A program made the position numbers and the translations under genes. Positions 69 through 14,428 of a stretch of DNA of 14,428 nt are shown in pieces. Position 1 is the stretch's first letter. Each line of letters begins with the position of its first letter. Under the pieces are notes generated by a model. It saw only the letters and a program-made list of their open reading frames with translations, searched no databases and was not told the DNA's origin. The stretch comes from Eubacterium sp. (GTDB lineage Bacteria; Bacillota_A; Clostridia; Lachnospirales; Lachnospiraceae), in assembly GCA_023663915.1 (NCBI GenBank), contig JAMPGN010000100.1, positions 1 through 14,428 on the forward strand, read 5' to 3'.

Positions 69-1986
69 CAACAAATTCCCCATAGGTTCCCTTTGTTGTT
101 TTCTTAATCTCATAAAGCGCTTCGTCTGCATGGCTTAAAAGTATAGACACATCCGCTCCCGCATCCGCAGTCCACGCAAAACCTGCAGATGCGCGGAGCG
201 TTTGTGTTTTTGTATCGGATAACGGAATTTGTTTATTATCGAGAACAGAATAAAAATAGTCCAAATAACGAACAATATCTATTCTGTTGTCACAGTCAAA
301 TATCATCATACAAAACTCATCGCCGGAACGTCTTGCAGTCAGATAATGCTCTGAGGGCATGGTATGGAGAATTTCAGCGAAACATTGAAGGTATTTATCA
401 CCAATGTCATGTCCAAAGCTATCGTTGATTCCTTTAAAATGATCCAAATCCAGCATAACGGCAGCGCATATTTTTCCATCCGGCATATCCCGCAGGATGT
501 TTTGCGCTAATTGCTGAAAATATTGGTATTTATAGAGCTTTGTGAGCGCGTCATGTGTGTTTTCGTAACGCATACGTATTTTTTCCGTCATATCCGGCGT
601 AACATCTATGATGACGCCAAGTTTTCCGGTCTGTGATTCGGACATATGAATGCGCACATATTTTGTATCGCTGATTCGATAAACATCTTTCTCATCTTCA
701 ACAGGTTCTCTTGTAATATCATTCATATAGCTGTCAAAAGCATTTCTGTTTTTACAAAGTTCCTTTACCTTCTCTGCTGGAATTTCTAACAGTTTCCAGA
801 TGCCCGAAGTGACAAAAGCGTGATCGTTCCCCTTTTCATATTCATATGCAGCCAATGGAATACCGCTGATGTCAATGATTGCTGATATTTTATCTGAAAG
901 ATTGATAATACTTTTCACCATGGTATTGATTCCGCTGCTCAGTTCTTCAAATTCACGGTTTCCTCCGACCGTTACGGTTGTGTAAAGATTTCCTTCCGTG
1001 ATAGCCGACAAACTTTCCAAAATACTGTGTATGCCGTCAATTACCTTCCATTTGACAAGACAGTACAGAAGCAGGATGACAGCCGCTTCGATGAATAACA
1101 GGTAAATCAATGTCTGCATTGTGTTTTTCATAAGCTCCTGAAACAAAATGTCTTTCGGAAGTGCGGCGCATATGAGTACATCATCATAAACCCTGCTCAC
1201 AAGATACATTTTTTGACCGTCCGCGCCTGTCTTAAATGCGCCCTCTGTACATTCCAGAAGTTGATTTAACTGATAACATTCTTCCGAAAAATCCTGTTCC
1301 ATACCATCATGATCGGAATGTCCTAAGACCTCTCCGGTTGCGCGGTCAACAACAAAAAGTTCTTCACCTACATTCGTGGGAAATTTTGAAAAAATATAGT
1401 CATATGTATTTCTGGACTGTGCCTGCATGCGTCTCTCCGGTACAAATCCAACCTGTATAAAACCTTTCTGCTTCTTTCTCACAACACCCACATACTGCAT
1501 CATGTTTCCCTCCGCTGCGTTGGGCTGTGGTTCCTGTATCAGACAGGCGTCTTTGTCTGTACTGTCTAAGAGAATCAGAAACGGTTTGGTCTGGTCATGG
1601 ATTTTCATATCGAAATTAACATACTTTTCTACGGATGAGGATATAATGATACCGTTTTCGTCAATGACATGAAGTTCGTCTACATTTAACAGCTCTGCCA
1701 GATACTGCATCATTGACACATCAGTAACAACTTCCTGTTGTTTGTCCATTACGTATGCCGCCGCTTTTGCTCTGGTCAGATAATCCTCATCTAAGTTTTC
1801 CTGTATTACCGCAAGCTCCATGCGGTTATTTTCCAATGTATGTATCACCTGTTCGATTTTTGCCTGGAAGATGTTAAACTGCCGGCTTTCAAATGTGCGC
1901 CTGCTGATCAGGAAGCTGATAAAGAGAATGAAAAAGATAGCGATTGTCATAATGATAGAAGTATATTTGATAAATGTTTTCTGCAT
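61..1986 (-). CDS. Membrane-bound diguanylate cyclase (sensor-HAMP-GGDEF)
   Basis: A 641-residue protein predicted to make the second messenger c-di-GMP from two GTP at the inner face of the membrane, under control of an extracellular sensor. It has a first membrane segment at about residues 8-27, an outside domain at about 30-290 with Cache-like character (VIDENGIIISSS), a second membrane segment at about 292-312, a HAMP-like linker to about 360, a degenerate PAS-like stretch, and a GGDEF domain from about 475 to the end. The domain shows DALTKLY, the metal-binding LDLDHF (Asp 513) and the active-site loop SGDEF at 554-558. The first glycine of GGDEF is serine and no inhibitory RxxD motif precedes the loop, so feedback control by product is probably lost. 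The ATG at 1986 is chosen because GGGAG stands 8 bases before it; a further upstream in-frame ATG has no such site and adds a non-hydrophobic leader. Cyclase class is certain; the ligand is unknown. Confidence 0.93.
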   Translation of the reverse strand: MQKTFIKYTSIIMTIAIFFILFISFLISRRTFESRQFNIFQAKIEQVIHTLENNRMELAVIQENLDEDYLTRAKAAAYVMDKQQEVVTDVSMMQYLAELLNVDELHVIDENGIIISSSVEKYVNFDMKIHDQTKPFLILLDSTDKDACLIQEPQPNAAEGNMMQYVGVVRKKQKGFIQVGFVPERRMQAQSRNTYDYIFSKFPTNVGEELFVVDRATGEVLGHSDHDGMEQDFSEECYQLNQLLECTEGAFKTGADGQKMYLVSRVYDDVLICAALPKDILFQELMKNTMQTLIYLLFIEAAVILLLYCLVKWKVIDGIHSILESLSAITEGNLYTTVTVGGNREFEELSSGINTMVKSIINLSDKISAIIDISGIPLAAYEYEKGNDHAFVTSGIWKLLEIPAEKVKELCKNRNAFDSYMNDITREPVEDEKDVYRISDTKYVRIHMSESQTGKLGVIIDVTPDMTEKIRMRYENTHDALTKLYKYQYFQQLAQNILRDMPDGKICAAVMLDLDHFKGINDSFGHDIGDKYLQCFAEILHTMPSEHYLTARRSGDEFCMMIFDCDNRIDIVRYLDYFYSVLDNKQIPLSDTKTQTLRASAGFAWTADAGADVSILLSHADEALYEIKKTTKGTYGEFVVS

Positions 1987-2019
1987 AAACGGCACTCCCT
2001 TCGCATTTGTCCGGCAAAT

Positions 2020-2025
2020 ATTATA
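2020..2025 (-). promoter_or_regulatory. Probable -10 box for the membrane diguanylate cyclase
   Basis: On the minus strand a perfect TATAAT lies 34 bases before the ATG, which would give a leader of roughly 27 bases carrying the GGGAG site. There is no convincing -35 hexamer at the right distance, so the promoter may need an activator. Confidence 0.45.
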
Positions 2026-2159
2026 GTATGCTTCCAGGCAAATGCGTTGACCATTTCTTCGCAAAATATGCCCAACTTTTTGCAAAGCAGATTATTTGCG
2101 AAAAAATGGCTGTTTTTGCGAGATTTTGTCATTTTTAATCATCCCCTTACAAGGATACA

Positions 2160-2671
2160 ATGAAAAAGACAACAAGAATCCGCACTTCCATTACGAATGA
2201 GCGCGGCGAACGGCAGATTAACACACAGGCTTCAGAGGAGGTCGTTCGTCATGTGTTAAAAGATGGCGAAATCGTGGGCATGGTTTTTCTTGGTACGCCG
2301 CAGGAGACTGTCAGCACAATTATCAATAAGGTGAGAATGCAGTTTTTTCTGATCATTTTGTGTATGGGCGTTTTTGTGTCGATCGCAGCAGACTAATCTG
2401 ACAAATGAATCTGTTGCAAAAATCAGTTATGCGGCGGTGCTGATCACCTCGATCGCGTCACAGACCAATCTGCTTTCTTTAAATGCCAGCATTGAGGCAG
2501 CGCGTGCAGGATTCTGCGTTACTTTCGCAGGAAAATTCTGCAAGTCTTGAGGAAATCATGGCGTCCATTGAAAATATTTACGATGAAGTTGGTGGTATTT
2601 CAAAGAAGGCTGAATATTTAGAGAGTTTGTCACAGGAAATGCTGGCAAGCGTTGGTGTATTTCACATATAA
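2160..2671 (+). pseudogene. Degraded methyl-accepting chemotaxis protein, three fragments
   Basis: Three pieces of a transmembrane chemoreceptor follow each other in three different frames. Piece one (2160-2396) is the end of a periplasmic Cache-type ligand domain (TRIRTSITNERGERQI) and the second membrane segment (FFLIILCMGVFVSIAA). Piece two (about 2386-2505) carries the hallmark of the signalling hairpin, IASQTNLLSLNASIEAARAG, which docks to CheA and CheW. Piece three (about 2500-2671) is the far C-terminus, SQENSASLEEIMASIENIY to LASVGVFHI. The first membrane segment, half the sensor, the HAMP domain, most of the methylation helices and about 100 residues after the hairpin are gone. No good ribosome-binding site precedes 2160. 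The gene cannot make a working receptor. The pieces are in the correct order on one strand, so this is in-place decay by deletion rather than assembly of unrelated fragments. Confidence 0.88.
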
Positions 2672-2683
2672 TATAATAGTGGT

Positions 2684-2707
2684 CCTCCGCCATTTTGCAG
2701 GCGGAGG
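2684..2707 (-). terminator. Hairpin ending the exporter operon
   Basis: CCTCCGCC at 2684-2691 and GGCGGAGG at 2700-2707 form a perfect 8-bp GC-rich stem with an 8-base loop, 42 bases past the permease stop. On the minus strand the stem is followed by an AT-rich run (ACTATTATATTATA) rather than a pure T-tract, so termination may be leaky. The same stem could also have served the decayed chemoreceptor from the other side. Confidence 0.55.
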
Positions 2708-2748
2708 TACATCTCTATGCGAAGGCGGATGGAGCTGCGAAACTCATT

Positions 2749-5259
2749 TCAGTCGTCATTCCGGATGCGGTCGGTCAGACTTTCGCGCTCCATCTTTTTG
2801 CGGATAAAAAGCGTGATCAGAAGCTGTCCGCAAAGCAGGACAAATACAAGGCCGATGCTTTCCCACAGAGGATAGTGATACCGGCTGATGCTCATAAAAT
2901 GTTCTTCTTTTGCCCAGCGGAACAGCAAAATGCCTGCCAGATTGCCGAGGGTCAGGCTGACGATAAGTGTCCCGGTAGTAAAGACCAGCCCCTCGCCGGA
3001 AAGCATCTGCACAAGCTGCCTGCCGGAGAGCCCGACTGCCTGCAAAATGGCAAGCTCTTTCTTCCGGGTGACGATGCTGGTGATCATGGTGTTGATCAGA
3101 TTGATAAAGCCGATTATGGCGATCAGGATCAATAACAGATAGAGCGGATATTTTGTCAGGCTTACCGAGGACTTACCGATCAGCATTTCCACGTCCATGG
3201 CATAAAGCCCGAGGTATTCATTTTCGGCAACGATCTCTGTTAACGTTTCCTTAACGCTGTCGTAGTTTTTCGCTTCTGCTTCCAGATAGATACTGACGGT
3301 GGGATCACAGGTCAACCCAAGCTCCTTCCAGGCGTCTTCTGTCATTAAAAGAAAGTTAAAATCGGCGTCCGGCTCCGACAGGGCTGTCAGGGTGTAGGTG
3401 AAAGGGATTTCCCGATCCCCGTCATGCAGGGTGACAGAGAACGTGTCGCCCAGGGAAAGCCCGTACTGTTCAAAGCTGTAGGCGTGGGTACAGATGACTT
3501 CGTGATTTGCCGTCATGCGGTCGTAGTCGATCGTGCCTTGCGACAGCCAGTCGTTTAATTCCACCACATCGTCTCTGGTAAAATAGGAGAGGGGCAGCCT
3601 GTTTTCGTAGTCGTCATACATGGCAGATTGCGTGTCTGCAGAGGAGACGACCTTGCCTGCTTCCCGTTCCACGGCGGTCACGCCGTCTATGGCGCGCAGT
3701 CTGTCAAGGAAGGCGTCGTTAAAATAATTCTGCTGTACCAGATTTTCCAGATTATTCTCCGGATATTCTTTATCATGCAGGGAATAATCCAGCATAATGC
3801 GGAAATCGCCCCGCGGGATATCTCTTCTGGCGATATCCTCCGCGCTGACACTGCTCAACACAGCGGATACGCAGATAAAGAGGACACAGCTTAAGCCCAT
3901 GGTAAGGATGGTGACGATGGTGCGTTTTTTATTGCGCGTCAAGTTAGCAAAGGTTAGGGTAGAAACCTTTATTTGTCTGTGCCCCTTCCGTACTTTGGCA
4001 TTGCCGCTGTTTTCCTGATAACGGATTGCTTCCGCCGGGGAGACCTTCTTTGCCATGCGGATAGGCTTTAACAGGGACAAGCATACGGTAATCAGTACCG
4101 TTACGGTTACGAGAGCGAGGTAAGGTAAAGAAAACATATGAATCTGCCCGATCAGGGACGCCGCCGATGCCTGTGCCGTGGAAGTGAGGGCGGAAGCGCT
4201 GTATGCCCAGATGACCAGCGGGAACAGGAAATAGGGCAGGAAATAGCCGAGGAAAAGCCCTGGCGGAATGGCAATAACGGCGATTAACAGACCTTGCCGG
4301 TAAAACAGCCCCGTAATCTGCCGTCTGGTTGCTCCGAGGGCTTTCAGCTTACCAATCTCCTGTACATCGGTGATAACGCCCACATAAAAAATACTGTAAA
4401 TGACCAGCGCGGAAAAAACAATCACGATCAGGCTGATCGCGGCAATGACCATGATTACGTCCGTGTTCGGTTCGGTTACGGTATACAGATATTCTTTATT
4501 CAAAATAACATGTTCTTTGTCCACGCCGATATCTGCGGCGATGGCATATATTTTATCCTCTATTTCGCCGTAGGAGAGTTCATCTTCCCCATAGACGCGC
4601 AGGGTCGCGTCGTATTCCGGCACATAAAGACCGGCGTCCTCATACTCGGAAAGAAGCGCCTTAGAGACGGTGGCGGACCACATGATGCGGCTATCGTCCA
4701 TGTTCTCGTTTATCTCTACATCGGCGAGGAGTCCGCTGGTGGTAAATTCTCGGGTAAGGATTTCGCCTTTCCCATTAATACGGAAGGAAACAGAGACTTT
4801 GCCGTCGATGACCGGTTCTGCGCCCATGCGCCTGAAAAAAGCAGGAGCAGCGCCGATTTCATCCGCAGTTTCGGGGGCATGACCCTCTTCGGCTTTCCAT
4901 AAAACGAAGCTTCCTTCCGCAGAGTCCCGGTCGTCCTTGACAACGTTCTGATAGACCAGAGCACCATTCATCTTTTCATTGACGATATCGGCGAAGATTT
5001 CCATTGTGGCCAAGGTCTCCACGTTGATATGTTTGGATAATACGGAGACCTGTTCCGCGGTGACGCCGCTGAAGGTGGCGTGATAGTTTGATTGGGAAAA
5101 AAACTGCCGGTTCATGTCGAGAGCGGCGAGACCGACCGTGCCGATTGCCATAAGCAGCATGGTGGTGAGCATGATAGCAATACCTGTGAGCAGCGTGCGG
5201 CTTTTTTGGAAGCGGAGCCTGCTGTGGGCGAGTGTAGAAATGGTGTTAGTTTTCTTCAT
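2749..5259 (-). CDS. ABC transporter permease, FtsX/MacB-type, two-domain
   Basis: An 836-residue integral membrane protein, the permease of an exporter powered by the ATPase encoded just before it. Two halves each follow the FtsX plan: one membrane helix, a large outside domain, then three helices. Half one has TM1 at about 22-45, an outside domain to about 265, and TM2-4 within about 268-397. Half two has TM5 at about 447-468, an outside domain to about 700, and TM6-8 within about 702-815. After TM2 and TM6 come the coupling-helix motifs EIGKLKALGATRRQ and RKKELAILQAVGLSGRQ that contact the ATPase. Such proteins extract or expel lipids, lipoproteins or peptides from the membrane mechanically rather than through a channel. 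The ATG at 5259 has GAGGTG at proper distance and overlaps the end of the ATPase gene by 14 bases, which implies translational coupling. The two-fold plan differs from the ten-helix BceB type with one big outside loop. The substrate is not evident. Confidence 0.92.
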   Translation of the reverse strand: MKKTNTISTLAHSRLRFQKSRTLLTGIAIMLTTMLLMAIGTVGLAALDMNRQFFSQSNYHATFSGVTAEQVSVLSKHINVETLATMEIFADIVNEKMNGALVYQNVVKDDRDSAEGSFVLWKAEEGHAPETADEIGAAPAFFRRMGAEPVIDGKVSVSFRINGKGEILTREFTTSGLLADVEINENMDDSRIMWSATVSKALLSEYEDAGLYVPEYDATLRVYGEDELSYGEIEDKIYAIAADIGVDKEHVILNKEYLYTVTEPNTDVIMVIAAISLIVIVFSALVIYSIFYVGVITDVQEIGKLKALGATRRQITGLFYRQGLLIAVIAIPPGLFLGYFLPYFLFPLVIWAYSASALTSTAQASAASLIGQIHMFSLPYLALVTVTVLITVCLSLLKPIRMAKKVSPAEAIRYQENSGNAKVRKGHRQIKVSTLTFANLTRNKKRTIVTILTMGLSCVLFICVSAVLSSVSAEDIARRDIPRGDFRIMLDYSLHDKEYPENNLENLVQQNYFNDAFLDRLRAIDGVTAVEREAGKVVSSADTQSAMYDDYENRLPLSYFTRDDVVELNDWLSQGTIDYDRMTANHEVICTHAYSFEQYGLSLGDTFSVTLHDGDREIPFTYTLTALSEPDADFNFLLMTEDAWKELGLTCDPTVSIYLEAEAKNYDSVKETLTEIVAENEYLGLYAMDVEMLIGKSSVSLTKYPLYLLLILIAIIGFINLINTMITSIVTRKKELAILQAVGLSGRQLVQMLSGEGLVFTTGTLIVSLTLGNLAGILLFRWAKEEHFMSISRYHYPLWESIGLVFVLLCGQLLITLFIRKKMERESLTDRIRNDD

Positions 5260-8178: not shown

Positions 8179-9945
8179 ATGAAACAGTTTCAGTTTGCAT
8201 ACCTTGACAGAAAATCTTTTACAGAAGAGTTGACGAAGTTAAAGCAGAGCGGTAAGGCGGACGGCGCGGCGGCGCTGTTTCAGATTTATTCCGAGATACT
8301 GGAGGAGACGGCGGTGCAGGAGGTGGGCGAGGCGATTGCAGAGTGCTTTCCGGATACGCCTTATATCGGATGCTCTACCAGCGGCAACATCATTGACTGT
8401 GAGCTTTCCGACAAGATCACGGTAGTGTATACGCAGTTTGAATTACCCACGACCAGATTCCGTATTTTCCAGTATGATATGGCAGTCCTGCCCGTGGATG
8501 AGATCACGGCGCGGATCGTGGAAGAAACCCGGGAAAATCCATGGGTAAAGGCGATTGAAATGTACTTTACAATTCCCGAAGGTTCGACGACCCGCTTTTG
8601 CGACGGCTTAAAAGATGTGCGCGGGGATATCCAGATTTTTGGCGGCGTGACCTGCAGTGACGATATCACCAGCGACGATTCCTGTGTATTTACGAAGGAA
8701 TACGGCTTTTCCGAAAGCGCTATCATCATCGTTTTTTATGGCGGCGAGGACTTTTATGTGGATTCCATCAAGGTGACGGGCTGGAAGCCTCTTGGCAGGA
8801 AATTCCATGTCACGAAATCGCAGGGGTCGCTTTTGCAGGAGCTGGACGGTATGCCTGCTTACGACGTATATCATAAATACCTGAATATTAAAAACGACGA
8901 AAACTTTTTCTATAATACGTTAGAATTTCCTCTGTTTTACGAACATAACGATACAACCATCCTGCGTACGCCAGTGTCCAGCAATGCGGATGGCTCCATC
9001 AATATGACCTCCGATATGGATATCGGTTCTGTGGTGCGTATCTCCTATGGCGACCCCGGCACTATCGTAGAAAGTATCCGTCAGGACAGCCAACGGATTG
9101 CAGCGTTTGCGCCGGATGTGTTACATATTTTTTCCTGCGCTGCAAGGCGTACCTTCTGGACAAATAAAGAGCCGACCTATGAGATTCAGCCTTTCCAGGA
9201 TATTTCCCCTTCCTGCGGCTTTTTCTCCCACGGGGAGTTTCTGCGCACCAAAGGCAGCCTGAACCAGCACAATGTGACGCTGGTGATCGCGGCGATGCGG
9301 GAAGGTGAAAAAAAGGAGTCTGCAAAGGCAGAGGTACAGGATCAGATGGAACTGTCAAGAGTGCCCTTGGTATCCCGTCTGGCGACTTTTATCAGCGTGA
9401 CCTCTCTGGAGTTGGAGAATACGAACCAACAGCTGGAATTAGTCAACGATAAGCTGAAAATGGCGGCGATTATTGACGGCTTGACAGGATTATATAATCG
9501 GAAAGAAATCCAGAGCCAGATTGAAGAGTCCCTTTCCGGAGTGGCACAGGAACAGTTTTCTCTGGTCATGCTTGATATTGATAATTTTAAGCAGGTGAAC
9601 GATACCTACGGACATCAGGAGGGCGATGCGGTCATTGTGGCGCTTGCCGATATCCTGCGCAACCGAAGGATCGGGGAGAAGCAGAACGTTTCCTCCGGCA
9701 GATGGGGCGGCGAGGAGTTTATGGTGCTTCTGCGCGGTACGGATGCCAATTCTGCGGCTTATATTGCGGATCTCATGCGGGAGAGCTTTGCAAATACCGG
9801 CTTCCGCAATATCCGTCCGCAGACAGTGAGCCTGGGCGTGACGCAGGCAAGGGCGGACGATACCGTGGATTCCCTGTGCAGCCGTGTGGACATGGCGCTT
9901 TACCGTGCAAAAAAGAACGGTAAAAACCGCGTGGAGATGGAATAG
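8179..9945 (+). CDS. Soluble FIST-domain diguanylate cyclase
   Basis: A 588-residue cytoplasmic protein joining a FIST sensor to a c-di-GMP synthase. The first two thirds match the FIST N and C layout: YIGCSTSGNI near residue 63, the YGGEDFYVDSIKVTGWKPLG stretch that starts the second half, and FSCAARRTF and CGFFSHGEF further on. FIST domains are thought to bind small metabolites such as amino acids. A helical linker (about 390-430, ELENTNQQLELVNDKLKMAA) leads to a GGDEF domain with DGLTGLYNR (433), metal-binding LDIDNF (Asp 466) and GGEEF (510-514), all intact. The position of the inhibitory RxxD motif reads KQNV, so product feedback is probably absent. There are no membrane helices. The ATG at 8179 follows AAAGGTGG at a good distance; an in-frame ATG at 8158 would leave a leader of only about 11 bases without such a site. 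Transcription ends at the hairpin before spmA. Confidence 0.93.
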   Translation: MKQFQFAYLDRKSFTEELTKLKQSGKADGAAALFQIYSEILEETAVQEVGEAIAECFPDTPYIGCSTSGNIIDCELSDKITVVYTQFELPTTRFRIFQYDMAVLPVDEITARIVEETRENPWVKAIEMYFTIPEGSTTRFCDGLKDVRGDIQIFGGVTCSDDITSDDSCVFTKEYGFSESAIIIVFYGGEDFYVDSIKVTGWKPLGRKFHVTKSQGSLLQELDGMPAYDVYHKYLNIKNDENFFYNTLEFPLFYEHNDTTILRTPVSSNADGSINMTSDMDIGSVVRISYGDPGTIVESIRQDSQRIAAFAPDVLHIFSCAARRTFWTNKEPTYEIQPFQDISPSCGFFSHGEFLRTKGSLNQHNVTLVIAAMREGEKKESAKAEVQDQMELSRVPLVSRLATFISVTSLELENTNQQLELVNDKLKMAAIIDGLTGLYNRKEIQSQIEESLSGVAQEQFSLVMLDIDNFKQVNDTYGHQEGDAVIVALADILRNRRIGEKQNVSSGRWGGEEFMVLLRGTDANSAAYIADLMRESFANTGFRNIRPQTVSLGVTQARADDTVDSLCSRVDMALYRAKKNGKNRVEME

Positions 9946-9991
9946 AAAAGGAAATAAAATAGAAAACAGCGAAAAACATGATTGCGTGGAG

Positions 9992-10036
9992 ACTCTCATA
10001 GAATGGAGTAAGGATTTTCATTCTATGGGAGTTTTT
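9992..10036 (+). terminator. Terminator hairpin whose 3' arm contains the spmA ribosome-binding site
   Basis: ACTCTCATAGAATG (9992-10005) pairs with CATTCTATGGGAGT (10019-10032), 14 bp with a single T-G wobble and a 13-base loop, followed at once by a five-T run (10032-10036). This is a complete factor-independent terminator for the FIST-GGDEF gene. The only ribosome-binding site for spmA, GGGAG at 10027-10031, sits in the 3' arm, and the spmA ATG begins 6 bases later. Confidence 0.8.
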
Positions 10037-10037
10037 C

Positions 10038-10634
10038 ATGTTAAATTATATCTGGGCGTTTATGATCCTGATTGGCGTTGTGTATGGCGCGTTTACCGGA
10101 AAAATGGCGGAGGTGACGAGCGCGGCGTTGGACTCCGCGGGAGATGCGGTGTCTTTGTGTATCACCATGATCGGCGTGATGGCGTTGTGGGTAGGATTGA
10201 TGGAAATTGCGCAGAAATCGGGTCTGATCGCAAAGATGACGAAAGGGATACAGCCTTTTATCAGTTTTCTTTTCCCACGGATTCCCAAAGGGCATCCCGC
10301 TAGGGAATATATCGCGACGAATTTGATTGCCAATGTGCTGGGGCTTGGCTGGGCGTGTACTCCTGCGGGCTTGAAAGCGATGGAAGAGCTGGCGAAGCTG
10401 GAAAAGGAGCGTGGGAATCCGGATACGCATATTGCCAGCAACGAGATGTGCACGTTTTTGATTTTGAATATCTCGTCGTTGCAGCTGATCCCTGTGAATA
10501 TGATCGCCTACCGCAGCCAGTATGGCAGTGTGAATCCTGCGGGGATCATTGCGCCCGCGATTCTTGCAACGCTTGTGAGTACGGCGGTGGCGGTGGTGTA
10601 TTGTAAGGGGAAGGGGAGGAAGCGGAGAGAGTGA
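10038..10634 (+). CDS. spmA: Spore maturation protein A
   Basis: A 198-residue membrane protein of the nucleoside-recognition (Gate) family. In Bacillus subtilis SpmA acts with SpmB in dehydration of the spore core and heat resistance. The N-terminus MLNYIWAFMILIGVV, the IPKGHPAREYIATNLIANV stretch and the motif LGLGWACTPAGLKAMEEL agree in order and spacing with B. subtilis SpmA, and the length (about 196 there) matches, so the start at 10038 is secure. Several hydrophobic helices span the protein and the C-terminus is basic (KGKGRKRRE). Translation would start from GGGAG inside the terminator hairpin just upstream. The usual partner gene spmB does not follow; an AT-rich NACHT cassette begins within 100 bases. 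Confidence 0.92.
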   Translation: MLNYIWAFMILIGVVYGAFTGKMAEVTSAALDSAGDAVSLCITMIGVMALWVGLMEIAQKSGLIAKMTKGIQPFISFLFPRIPKGHPAREYIATNLIANVLGLGWACTPAGLKAMEELAKLEKERGNPDTHIASNEMCTFLILNISSLQLIPVNMIAYRSQYGSVNPAGIIAPAILATLVSTAVAVVYCKGKGRKRRE

Positions 10635-10658
10635 TATATTCAGTTAAAAAGCAAAATA

Positions 10659-10687
10659 TTGTAAAAAGTTGTAAACTCCGTTATACT
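10659..10687 (+). promoter_or_regulatory. Promoter of the NACHT gene
   Basis: TTGTAA (10659-10664), a 17-base spacer and TATACT (10682-10687) make a good sigma-A promoter 37 bases before the ATG. A second TTGTAA at 10669-10674 with an 18-base spacer to TATAAA (10693-10698) offers an overlapping alternative. The cassette therefore carries its own promoter and need not depend on spmA. Confidence 0.65.
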
Positions 10688-10708
10688 ATTCTTATAAATA
10701 CATAGGAT

Positions 10709-10726
10709 TAGGAGAATTTGGTGATG
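10709..10726 (+). promoter_or_regulatory. Ribosome-binding site with three adjacent start codons
   Basis: TAGGAG is followed by the in-frame triplets TTG (10718), GTG (10721) and ATG (10724). Spacing from AGGAG is 3, 6 and 9 bases. The ATG is the best compromise of codon and distance and is used here; a GTG start would add two residues at most. Confidence 0.6.
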
Positions 10727-12658
10727 AAAAAATTAATATACTTGGGAGAAATTCTTGTTAATATATTGATTAGACTAAAAATGTCAGATGATAAAAAAGA
10801 GGATGTTATAGATATAATATCTATGTTCAAAGATTTGGGGATGGATGAATTTGAAGCGAGAGAAGCAAAAAGGGGATTTGAAAAAATATCTGATAATATT
10901 GCGGCGTCTTGTAAAAAAGTGCTAGAAAAAATGAATCTTCGGGAGGAGCAAATAGAAAGGATTATTGAAAATGTAATTATTGCGTATAGAAGTTTAAATT
11001 TAAGTGTAGAAGATTTTTTTGAGTTAAAGTCGAATGAAGGAAAATTAAAAAAACAATTGTTAGATTCAAATATGCAAGGTGTTGACGATTTAGATGAAAG
11101 AGAATGGGAAATATATGGGCGTATGTTGGAGCATACTGCTCATATAATGATTAATTCATATATTAATCTTCCAGAATTTAATGCAACGGGTATTAAGAGA
11201 TTAAATCTAAAAATGGAGGAAATAGTAAATAAAATTGATGATTTGATTGGGCAGATGGAAGCCGTTAATCAGATTGTAGTTGACAAAAACGAAAAGATTG
11301 CTAATTTTGAAAGATGTTACCGAAATCAGATAATTAGTAAAAATAGTTATATAAACTTATTTGGAGCAGGAGGATTGGAGCGAGAATATAAAAGATATTT
11401 GTTATCTATTGCATACGTGGAATTAGAATTTGTTGATGAGCTATATAGTAGAGAAGTTTTGCTTGAAAATTTATTTAAAATATCAAAAAATGTATGGATA
11501 TCAGGAGAGGCGGGGTCTGGGAAAACGACTTTTTTACAATGGCTTGCAGTTAAATCGGCCGAGAATGACAGACAGATTACGGGTTTAAGAGATACTATTC
11601 CGGTGGTAATTGAACTTAGAAAATATGATAGTAGTAGTATTTCATTAAAAGAGTGTATTGAAAACGTTATGAAAGACGCGGCTATGGATATTCCTGATGG
11701 ATGGATTGCACAATTAATAAATTCTGGAAGATTCATTTTATTAATTGATGGATTAGACGAGATAAGTGAACAGGATAGAGAAAAAATTATAATATGGCTT
11801 GAGGAAATGGATTCAAATAATAAGTGTAAAAAGATAATTACAGCTCGACCGCAGGTAAAGGAAAGACCAGTGTGTTTTGAATTCCTAGAAACAAAAATTT
11901 TACCAATGGGTAGAGAAAGAATTAAAAAATTTATTGAGTATTGGCATGAAGCAGTTTTAGAAGCACAATTGAAGGTAGATAAAAATAATACTGAAAAAAT
12001 ATCTCAAAATCTTATTGAAAAGATTATGCAGTCGGAAGCGCTTCTTAAATTAGCATCAAATCCTTTACTATGTGCGATGATATGTTCATTGCATTATAGA
12101 AATGATTTGAATTTGCCAACAAATAAACGTGAATTGTATGAAGAATGTTGCAAAATGCTTATTGAAAAGAGGGATGTGGAAAAAGGAATTAATGATTTAG
12201 GAAATATGAAATTGGATTATGAACAGAAGAAAGTGATTTTAGCGCAATTGGCATATTGGATGATGAAGAATAACTATGTTGAGATTAAAATAAAAGATGC
12301 GGTAAAGTCTGTAAAACGTTCAATAAATGGAATGAATGTGCTAGATGCTTTGGGCGCAGAACAAGTAGTTTTTAAACATTTATTAGAGAGATGCGGAATA
12401 TTGCGTGAAACAGAGCGTGGGAAAATTGACTTTATACATAGGACATTTCAGGAGTATTTAACAGCATACGAAATAAGTAGACAAGAAGATTGGGGATATA
12501 TTCAAGAAAAAATTGGGAATACCGTGTGGCAAGAAACGATTGCTATGTGCATTGGATATGCAAAACGAGAGACGGCGAGTGAATTAATACGTTATACTTT
12601 AGGACAAGCAGGAGTAACGACTATAAATAGAAAATATTTATGGCAATTTCATATTTAA
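10724..12658 (+). CDS. NACHT-family STAND NTPase, N-terminal and NTPase half of an NLR-like protein
   Basis: A 644-residue predicted signalling ATPase of the NACHT branch of STAND proteins, the class that includes animal NLR sensors and bacterial bNACHT and Avs anti-phage proteins. Residues 1 to about 225 are all helical with charged coils and resemble the N-terminal helical domains of bacterial NACHT proteins; no nuclease, protease or TIR motif is seen. The NACHT core has Walker A GEAGSGKTT (261-269), Walker B FILLIDGLDEIS with Asp 342 and acidic Asp 345-Glu 346, and sensor-1 TARPQ (373-377). NPLLCAMICSLHY and FIHRTFQEYLTAYE (570-583) mark the helical and winged-helix regions. The frame then ends abruptly at 12658, just where a C-terminal sensor should follow; that sensor is encoded in the next frame, overlapping by 19 bases. 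AT content is far above that of spmA and genes to its left. Expected role: recognition of a phage component, oligomerization and abortive response. The effector activity is not evident. Confidence 0.88.
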   Translation: MKKLIYLGEILVNILIRLKMSDDKKEDVIDIISMFKDLGMDEFEAREAKRGFEKISDNIAASCKKVLEKMNLREEQIERIIENVIIAYRSLNLSVEDFFELKSNEGKLKKQLLDSNMQGVDDLDEREWEIYGRMLEHTAHIMINSYINLPEFNATGIKRLNLKMEEIVNKIDDLIGQMEAVNQIVVDKNEKIANFERCYRNQIISKNSYINLFGAGGLEREYKRYLLSIAYVELEFVDELYSREVLLENLFKISKNVWISGEAGSGKTTFLQWLAVKSAENDRQITGLRDTIPVVIELRKYDSSSISLKECIENVMKDAAMDIPDGWIAQLINSGRFILLIDGLDEISEQDREKIIIWLEEMDSNNKCKKIITARPQVKERPVCFEFLETKILPMGRERIKKFIEYWHEAVLEAQLKVDKNNTEKISQNLIEKIMQSEALLKLASNPLLCAMICSLHYRNDLNLPTNKRELYEECCKMLIEKRDVEKGINDLGNMKLDYEQKKVILAQLAYWMMKNNYVEIKIKDAVKSVKRSINGMNVLDALGAEQVVFKHLLERCGILRETERGKIDFIHRTFQEYLTAYEISRQEDWGYIQEKIGNTVWQETIAMCIGYAKRETASELIRYTLGQAGVTTINRKYLWQFHI

Positions 12659-13662
12659 ACGGGGCAGTTGAGGTTGATAGAGAATTAAGGATAGAAATTG
12701 AAAAGGAGGTATTCAAGCTGGTTCCGCCGAAACTTTGCGAATGTCAAAATTTAGCTGAAGCTGGCAACTTGGCAGTACAATATTTAAAATGTGAGAAAGA
12801 ATATAACCATGAGGAAAGACTTGCATGCCTCCGTGTATTGAGAATGATTGGCAGTAGTCATGCACTAGAGATTTCAAAATCCTATTTTCAACAAGCTATG
12901 GAAGAAGATGAACTGAGAGAGATAGGAAAACTTTATAAGCAATTTACTATAACTGAGTTGGTTGGAAATGGAATTCCCATTTTTGTTAAAGAATATGTAA
13001 TAAAATATTGTGATGAATTGGTGGTTTTACATTGTGAGATGATAAGGATAATGAATTTTTTAAAGGATCAAGATATCATTGCCTTGTCACGTAAAAAAAT
13101 TACTATTTTGAAAATTATAGATTATTATGATGATTTATATTTTGAATGGAAACAAATTTTTAAGAATGTGAGAAAATTAATTTTGTATGGAAAATTTTCA
13201 AATACAAATATTCTAAATGTTTTTTCTCAATTAAATAGTCTCATGATTTGTAATTTGGATATTATTTTTTCGATATATGATTTAAGAACTTATAAAAACA
13301 TCTATAATATTACTGAACTTACAATTATTACTTTTTCTAATGAGTATATTACTGGTAAGAATTTGCAGTTTTTAAAAAAATGTGAGAAACTTGGAGTGGT
13401 TTTGCTCAATAATGATTCTGAATTAATATTGGAAGATTTTGCATATTTACCAAAACTGCGAGAATTAACAATAGGAGCAGAATTTGCGTTAGACTTTGAT
13501 TATGAGATATTGCCGGAAAATGTGACGATATTAACTTTGATAGTTCCAAATGACCAAATAGCATATGCGTTAGAGGCTCAGGAGTTTCTATTTCCAATTG
13601 GAGTGGAAGTGGAAATAAAGGATTTAGAGGAATTAACAACGGATTTACTATATGGAGAATAG
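12640..13662 (+). CDS. Helical plus leucine-rich C-terminal half of the NACHT protein
   Basis: A 340-residue frame beginning at an ATG inside the last codons of the NACHT frame. Its start, AVEVDRELRIEIEKEVFKLVPP, is what commonly continues a bacterial NACHT protein after the winged helix, so it reads as the missing C-terminal half and not as an independent protein. Residues 1 to about 125 are helical, HEAT-like. Residues about 175-305 show leucine-rich-repeat spacing (VRKLILYG, LNSLMICNL, ITELTIITF, CEKLGVVLL, LPKLRELTIGA, VTILTLIVP). Such regions sense the ligand in NLR-like proteins. No good ribosome-binding site precedes 12640; the nearest GGAG is over 20 bases upstream. Production would need translational coupling, a -1 ribosomal slip, or a correction of a one-base loss. 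If fused, the protein is about 980 residues, normal for the family. Confidence 0.8.
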   Translation: MAISYLNGAVEVDRELRIEIEKEVFKLVPPKLCECQNLAEAGNLAVQYLKCEKEYNHEERLACLRVLRMIGSSHALEISKSYFQQAMEEDELREIGKLYKQFTITELVGNGIPIFVKEYVIKYCDELVVLHCEMIRIMNFLKDQDIIALSRKKITILKIIDYYDDLYFEWKQIFKNVRKLILYGKFSNTNILNVFSQLNSLMICNLDIIFSIYDLRTYKNIYNITELTIITFSNEYITGKNLQFLKKCEKLGVVLLNNDSELILEDFAYLPKLRELTIGAEFALDFDYEILPENVTILTLIVPNDQIAYALEAQEFLFPIGVEVEIKDLEELTTDLLYGE

Positions 13663-13754
13663 TACTAAATTATGATATGCACTAATTGAGTATAAGTGAA
13701 ATCTGATAAGGAACTGGCATAATTGTATGTTATTTATGTTTTGATTTGATATTA

Positions 13755-13784
13755 TTGATAAAAAATGAATTCAGTAGATATACT
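13755..13784 (+). promoter_or_regulatory. Possible promoter of the small broken gene
   Basis: TTGATA (13755-13760), an 18-base spacer and TATACT (13779-13784) lie about 70 bases before the ATG at 13858. Chance matches are frequent in DNA this rich in A and T. No terminator for the NACHT pair is visible in 13663-13754. Confidence 0.35.
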
Positions 13785-13857
13785 ATTTTTCAGTTAACTT
13801 TTAATTACAATTTTTCAGACAAAATATGTGTCATTAATTTGATAGGGGGTTAAAGCC

Positions 13858-14006
13858 ATGAAAGAAAGAATTAGTGAAGTTGAAAGAGTGAGGGAATCCA
13901 AGAAGCCTAACAGATGTTAGTTGTGAAAAATAATAAACCCTATGAGGTGGCGGAATTTGAAATAGTAGAATGTACGAAAAAGCGGTTGAGGAAAGGAAGA
14001 ATATAA
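13858..14006 (+). pseudogene. Broken small gene, possibly a Phd/YefM-like antitoxin
   Basis: AGGGGG precedes an ATG at 13858 whose frame reads MKERISEVERVRESKKPNRC and stops at 13920. The next frame continues with LVVKNNKPYEVAEFEIVE and stops at 14006. Joined by one frame change near 13912-13920 the pieces give about 50 residues. The VVKNNKPYEV stretch resembles the central strand of Phd/YefM-type antitoxins (KNN-P-V), but the similarity is short. Either two unrelated tiny frames or a decayed antitoxin; the strong ribosome-binding site favours a once-real gene. Confidence 0.35.
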
Positions 14007-14126
14007 GGTATACTAGTAATTGTTTATTGATGCTGGTTGGTGCAAAAAGATTTTTAAGGAAATATTATATGATTTATAGATTGGCAAAAGGTGCAGATGT
14101 AGAGCAAATTTGTGTGTTGGTCTGTA
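14007..14126 (+). other. AT-rich stretch without a recognisable gene
   Basis: A frame of 60 codons (13970-14152) crosses this stretch, with KRFLRKYYMIYRLAKGADVE in its middle, but it overlaps the broken small gene, has no ribosome-binding site before its ATG and matches no family I know. It could be debris of a toxin or other small gene. Confidence 0.25.
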
Positions 14127-14155
14127 TTGCAATAAAAAATATGGAAAGCTAGAAT
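14127..14155 (+). promoter_or_regulatory. Possible promoter of the right-edge antitoxin-like gene
   Basis: TTGCAA (14127-14132), a 17-base spacer and TAGAAT (14150-14155) sit about 60 bases before the ATG at 14218. Spacing is ideal; base composition makes a chance match possible. Confidence 0.4.
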
Positions 14156-14217
14156 ATGTTTCAAGTGGGATGAGTTGTACCCTACATAGTAAAAATGGAA
14201 GAAAGGTGGTAGTTGGT

Positions 14218-14428
14218 ATGTCTGTATTGCAGAGTAAAGTAATTCAATCTCTTGATGGACTGTCAGAGGATAACTTACAATTTTTATTTGATATGATTCA
14301 GCGTTTTATGAAAACTGATAAAATTGAGGAACAAAGAAATGACAACTTTAAAAGAAATGATAACAATTTTCGCAGGATTGGCAGTTTAGAAGGTCAAAAT
14401 CTCATTGACGCTGATTATGATATAGATG
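14218..14428 (+). CDS. Antitoxin-like small protein, cut by the right edge
   Basis: The frame opens at an ATG preceded by AAAGGTGG at good spacing and stays open for 70 codons to the window end. It begins MSVLQSKVIQSLDGLSEDNL and shows an amphipathic helix (LQFLFDMIQRFMKT), a charged stretch, then RRIGSLEGQNLIDADYDID. The order helix, linker, IG-x-GQ/K, acidic DDID-like end is what I recall for small Firmicute antitoxins encoded before PIN-domain toxins, where the acidic tail is followed by NDEI. The toxin would lie beyond the edge. The missing C-terminus keeps this tentative. Position beside a NACHT gene suits a defence cluster. Confidence 0.5.
   Translation, partial: MSVLQSKVIQSLDGLSEDNLQFLFDMIQRFMKTDKIEEQRNDNFKRNDNNFRRIGSLEGQNLIDADYDID

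Follow-up and report, generated by a model that had tools for sequence, protein, structure and literature searches.

ORF1 and ORF2 of the window, by which we mean the whole stretch of 14,428 nucleotides of Eubacterium sp. DNA analysed here, are pieces of one NNH1–NACHT–LRR-like protein, the parts of which do not lie in one polypeptide, the frame being broken at a TATT tandem tract. This is very probably a private frameshift, a recent 4-bp TATT contraction leaving a sensor-less, probably inactive NLR, and the locus looks like an ordinary broken copy rather than a new two-part design. The features of the locus are given in Table 1.

Table 1. Features of the split NLR locus, in window coordinates
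Feature	Position	Strand	Remarks
spmA-like gene	10038..10634	+	Pfam Gate 28.6 bits, cut-off 29.6
Shine-Dalgarno-like AGGAG	10710..10714	+	9 nt before ATG 10724
ORF1, 644 aa	10724-12658	+	NNH1, NACHT and first portion of following helical region
In-frame stop	12628..12630	+	Closes ORF2 frame on upstream side
TATT tandem tract remnant, frameshift site	12635..12641	+	1.75 copies; 2.75 copies in L001
ORF2, 340 aa	12640-13662	+	Remaining helical region and LRR-like C-terminal part

ORF1 lies in frame 2 and ends with TAA at 12656–12658, and ORF2 lies in frame 1 and opens with ATG at 12640, giving an overlap of 19 nt. This agrees with the initial annotation, in which a NACHT frame ended at 12658 and a new frame began at 12640. 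The start of ORF1 is likely the ATG at 10724, with AGGAG upstream, rather than the TTG at 10718 given by the ORF lister. At the junction one frame of the window gives NRKYLWQFHI-stop and the other gives KIFMAISYLNGAVEVD, and the last five residues of ORF1 are out of frame with respect to its relatives. The 340 codons of ORF2 are free of stops, compared with 40 and 37 stops over the same stretch in the other two plus-strand frames, and 1000 mononucleotide shuffles of 10635–14428 gave runs without a stop of 145 codons at most, so ORF2 is no chance frame. Alignment to relatives confirmed that the second frame is the direct continuation of the same protein, and both halves were found to be open as had been claimed, ORF2 being without decay compared with intact relatives.

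The N-terminal accessory domain NNH1 (PF22733, E 1.8e-11) and a NACHT domain (PF05729, E 1.7e-18) were identified in ORF1, together with the motifs GEAGSGKT and ILLIDGLD, which we take to be Walker A and B respectively. ORF2 had no domain match, with thresholds of E <= 1 for Pfam and PADLOC and E <= 0.1 for NCBIfam. The best match to ORF1 among those listed was P0001 (982 aa, 24 members, 28 contigs). Its AlphaFold2 model had a mean pLDDT of 82.3 and a pTM of 0.61, so that the relative placement of its domains is uncertain. NOD2, NLRP3 and NLRC4 were among the fold matches listed for the model, with NLRP3 NACHT structures aligning to residues ~193–691. Residues 765–965 matched Skp2 (1fs2), also among the matches listed, in a part that we take to be its LRR. 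The cut, at residue 638, falls within a predicted helix (637–648), some 130 residues short of the LRR-like part, which starts near 765, and is thus in a helical region and off any domain boundary. A split at the boundary between NTPase and sensor, as first suggested, was accordingly not borne out.

The lesion was compared with L001 (Lachnospiraceae bacterium 1XD21-87), the DNA of the P0001 gene and the closest relative with readable DNA, as well as the only close one. Its gene is one open frame of 982 aa at 1191–4142. The alignment of the window with L001 DNA has a single 4-nt gap near the junction, within TATTTATTTAT, the window having one unit fewer. With overlapping registers at the gene start merged into one, perfect 4-mer tracts of at least 2.75 copies were present in two places in the L001 gene, TATTTATTTAT being one of them. 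The initial annotation had attributed the break to one base missing from the A4 run at 12631–12634; this single-base loss was rejected, as the alignment places a four-base loss in the TATT tract. It is also a misfit because a one-base repair yields a protein one residue short of its relatives at KYLFxA, where F640 is invariant in all 28 relatives of alignment A2, which comprises the top 29 matches minus P0023. The junction sequence of the close relatives is KYLF(I/L)AI, and the more distant L002 has KYLF too, in A+T-rich codons, suggesting that the TATT tract may for the most part simply follow from the protein sequence. The junction was read in nine loci, comprising eight of the 80 genome loci and the viral locus, and the other seven of these do not have KYLF.

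The search with the ORF1 protein gave 195 matches, 120 of which were listed, the window's own ORF1 being absent from these 120 relatives. It was found that 118 of the 120 listed relatives were unbroken across the junction, 93 of them with no gap in reference residues 631–650. The remaining two, P0031 and P0111, stop far upstream of the junction, at reference residues 426 and 489 respectively, and none of the 120 listed relatives (195 matches in total) ended at the junction itself. Since the relatives are 90% identity clusters, any broken member within one of them would go unseen. Among six further relatives from whole genomes (seven matches), no stops were found within the match. The idea of a two-gene system with a separable sensor, for which relatives were checked for fused and split versions, therefore does not hold among these relatives. 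With close relatives fused, the break is a private mutation or an error by the reasoning of the initial annotation itself.

Relatives were also sought more widely. A relative was encoded by 239 stretches of the genome contigs, from which 80 loci were kept, and by one of 18 pattern-bearing stretches of the viral contigs, at 30% identity. When 397 genomes of the family of G003 (an uncultured Lachnospiraceae, the source of locus L006) were searched with P0001, with at most two candidates scored per genome, the one match at E <= 1e-30 was G003 itself. The idea that close relatives are carried on plasmids or phages was rejected: no plasmid match to DNA 9900–14428 was found, the 193 plasmid records matched by P0001 were all below 60% identity with none covering 80% of P0001, and P0001 matched no phage record.

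The search with the ORF2 protein gave five proteins, including the window's own, P0121, whose cluster has one member on one contig of 14428 bp, which is the window itself. P0122 and P0125 run through the junction, and the window's own is the single stand-alone piece among the five matches to start with M there. P0123 (341 aa) comes from a 60%-identical gene on a 1354-bp contig and starts close to the junction with a residue other than M; it is probably a gene call at the contig edge, but may be another broken allele. P0124 (209 aa, eight contigs) is identical to the last 209 residues of P0001, starting at M774, and could be a second broken allele or a contig-edge call.

Divergence in the two halves was used to judge the age of the break. 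Identity between the window and P0001/L001 was 85.0% in the N half (542/638) and 75.3% in the C half (256/340). The ratio of C-half to N-half divergence was 1.64 against P0001 and 1.52 against P0002, compared with 1.47–1.70 for nine intact pairs picked by hand. dN/dS against L001 was 0.273 for the C half, compared with 0.128 for the N half, and at the protein level the greater divergence of the C half is common to intact relatives. Of the columns without variation among 28 relatives, 88 in the N half and 8 in the C half, all are retained in the window. Lineage-specific changes in the C half numbered 14 on the window branch and 15 on the P0001 branch, compared with 27 and 15 respectively in the N half; near-invariant positions were altered in the window at 3 of 157 N-half sites, all in the NACHT region, and at none of 30 C-half sites. 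The N-half excess could indicate that relaxed selection began earlier, or could indicate nothing. As the asymmetry between the halves is common to intact relatives, and as ORF2 is conserved like the same part of those relatives, the break is read as recent. The view that it is very recent is thus supported, both by relatives unbroken at the junction and by an ORF2 that has not decayed.

An assembly or consensus error, in which the organism would have an intact frame and the contig would have lost four bases, is consistent with the single-member cluster of ORF2 and with the 118 unbroken relatives. However, the four bases lie in a non-homopolymer tract of 7–11 bp, a small fraction of the length of a read or k-mer, and a four-base loss in such a tract is atypical of sequencing error, so we consider an error unlikely. 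Phase variation would act at the 4-bp tandem tract instead of the A4 homopolymer first proposed. This reading, in which gain and loss of a TATT unit would switch the LRR part of the receptor on and off within the population, is favoured by a change of exactly one tandem unit at one of the two tracts of this kind in the L001 gene, by an undecayed C half, as expected if the gene were often switched back, and by P0124 as a possible second broken allele. Nevertheless, 1.75–2.75 units should switch rarely, known contingency loci usually having many more repeat units; the tract follows from a conserved YLF in A+T-rich DNA; and the one-unit difference, in a tract of few units, is relative to another strain, L001. 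Such switching is on this evidence very unlikely. The same low expectation attaches to the NLR being a contingency gene in which a TATT unit change removes or restores the LRR-like sensor and the gut population keeps both forms. If this were true, off cells would escape receptor cost or autoimmunity, and the LRR-less product may even be active or dominant. No split or phase-variable bacterial NLR was found in a limited literature search.

A true two-part NLR, with ORF2 coupled to the translation of ORF1 and forming a separate sensor, would fit the overlapping frames and the undecayed ORF2. Against it stand the absence of any relative ending at the junction among the 120 listed, the position of the cut within a helix rather than between domains, and the ORF2 matches, of which only the window's own starts with M here as a stand-alone piece. 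The translation signals are also contrary: no exact match of at least 3 bases to the Shine-Dalgarno sequence AAGGAGG was present 3–13 nt before 12640, and with the ORF2 ATG 16 nt upstream of the ORF1 stop, a ribosome terminating there would need to slide backwards. A two-part receptor is hence extremely unlikely. Internal re-start of ORF2 was also considered and rejected, exact Shine-Dalgarno matches for the ATG, GTG and TTG starts in 12631–13400 being of at most four bases. Programmed -1 frameshifting joining ORF1 and ORF2 would suit the -1 frame relation and the A AAA stretch in the overlap, but by inspection no slippery X XXY YYZ heptamer is in frame in 12631–12655, and the downstream RNA (12635–12735) has a less stable fold than 194 of 200 shuffles (z = +1.69). 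Moreover, L001 is without any shift to conserve, and the product would be one residue short of its relatives. Without a heptamer or a stable structure this explanation was rejected, and we regard it as scarcely conceivable. Judged from the sequence, coupled translation and programmed shifting are without support, and ORF2 is probably untranslated or hardly translated, given that it has no recognisable ribosome-binding site.

The private frameshift would have arisen in a single bacterial NLR gene with an N-terminal helical NNH1 domain, a NACHT NTPase, helical domains and an LRR-like C-terminus. A recent 4-bp contraction of the short TATT tract, likely caused by slippage in replication, would have shifted the frame, and ORF1 would now be made as a truncated NLR without the LRR-like part. 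The intact protein would be expected to act on the usual model of other NLRs, in which a phage or stress cue is recognised by the LRR side, oligomerisation takes place through the NACHT module and the N-terminal domain carries out the action. With ORF1 truncated and ORF2 without a recognisable ribosome-binding site, the receptor is most likely non-functional in the source strain.

Among known systems, P0001/L001 has the same order of parts as the window but is a single open frame of 982 aa in another neighbourhood, whereas the window copy is split. The mammalian NOD2, NLRP3 and NLRC4 matches had 16% and 18% identity in two listed rows, left residues before ~186 uncovered, and as fold matches show no function. 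The NCBIfam antiphage NACHT models EruA (27.1 bits on ORF1, cut-off 1000) and HyoA (15.7 bits on P0001, cut-off 1200) were both far below threshold. P0001 residues 242–589, the NACHT part, matched the PADLOC candidate defence model PDC-S60 (E 6e-15) over about one-third of the model (376–702 of 1027), and for the window ORF1 there was no PDC-S60 match at E <= 1, its only PADLOC match being a weak one to AbiEii (E 0.005). Bacterial NACHT proteins with leucine-rich repeats are described as bona fide bacterial NLRs (PLoS Biol 2025, PMC12169576); a central NACHT is common to the bacterial NLR/bNACHT proteins and the window copy, the latter being split.

The NLR gene sits directly 3' of the spmA-like gene. 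The spmA- and spmB-like genes, to which we presume these names apply, carry or nearly reach the Pfam Gate domain. The GC content of the NLR gene was 30–34% in 600-base steps over 10500–12599 and down to 25% in ORF2, compared with about 48–53% for the stretch before it. For the FIST–spmA stretch, the best match among the 397 genomes was G066, at 80% identity. In G355, an spmB-like gene directly follows spmA. Among 20 hand-picked genomes searched for spmB, 19 had a match, which shared contig and strand with spmA in eight, lay on the opposite strand of the spmA contig in four and was on a contig other than that of the FIST–spmA match in seven. In the eight with the same contig and strand, the two genes were adjacent in one and ~2 to 33 kb apart in seven, and two of those seven gaps contained defence-like genes, the other five being seen as ORF lists only. 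In G066, a cytosine methylase with HATPase and response-regulator-like genes came soon after spmA, and in G387, RelA/SpoT and HD genes followed spmA, with type I-C Cas genes further on. Together with the position of the NLR after spmA, this suggests that the spmA–spmB gap may be a settling place for defence genes, a topic on which a limited literature search found nothing.

Further along the window, 13858–14178 contains gene-like short pieces in all three plus-strand frames with many stops and looks like a decayed gene; a 60-residue piece of it had a weak match in two of the 397 genomes (best E 7.5e-4). An open frame at 14110–14427 runs off the contig end, and its last part presumably resembles small antitoxins; it had no match in PADLOC at E <= 0.1 or in Pfam at E <= 0.01. 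In L001, the intact NLR gene is preceded by a transposase-like frame at 63–731, which we take to be of the IS110 type. As this neighbourhood differs from that of the window, the NLR gene may be mobile.

As it stands, the finding means one more broken copy in the bacterial NLR family and carries little weight, and it serves as a caution that overlapping frames are easily misread as new two-part designs. If slippage of the tract were reversible, it would mean that receptors of bacterial innate immunity are switchable by simple repeats.
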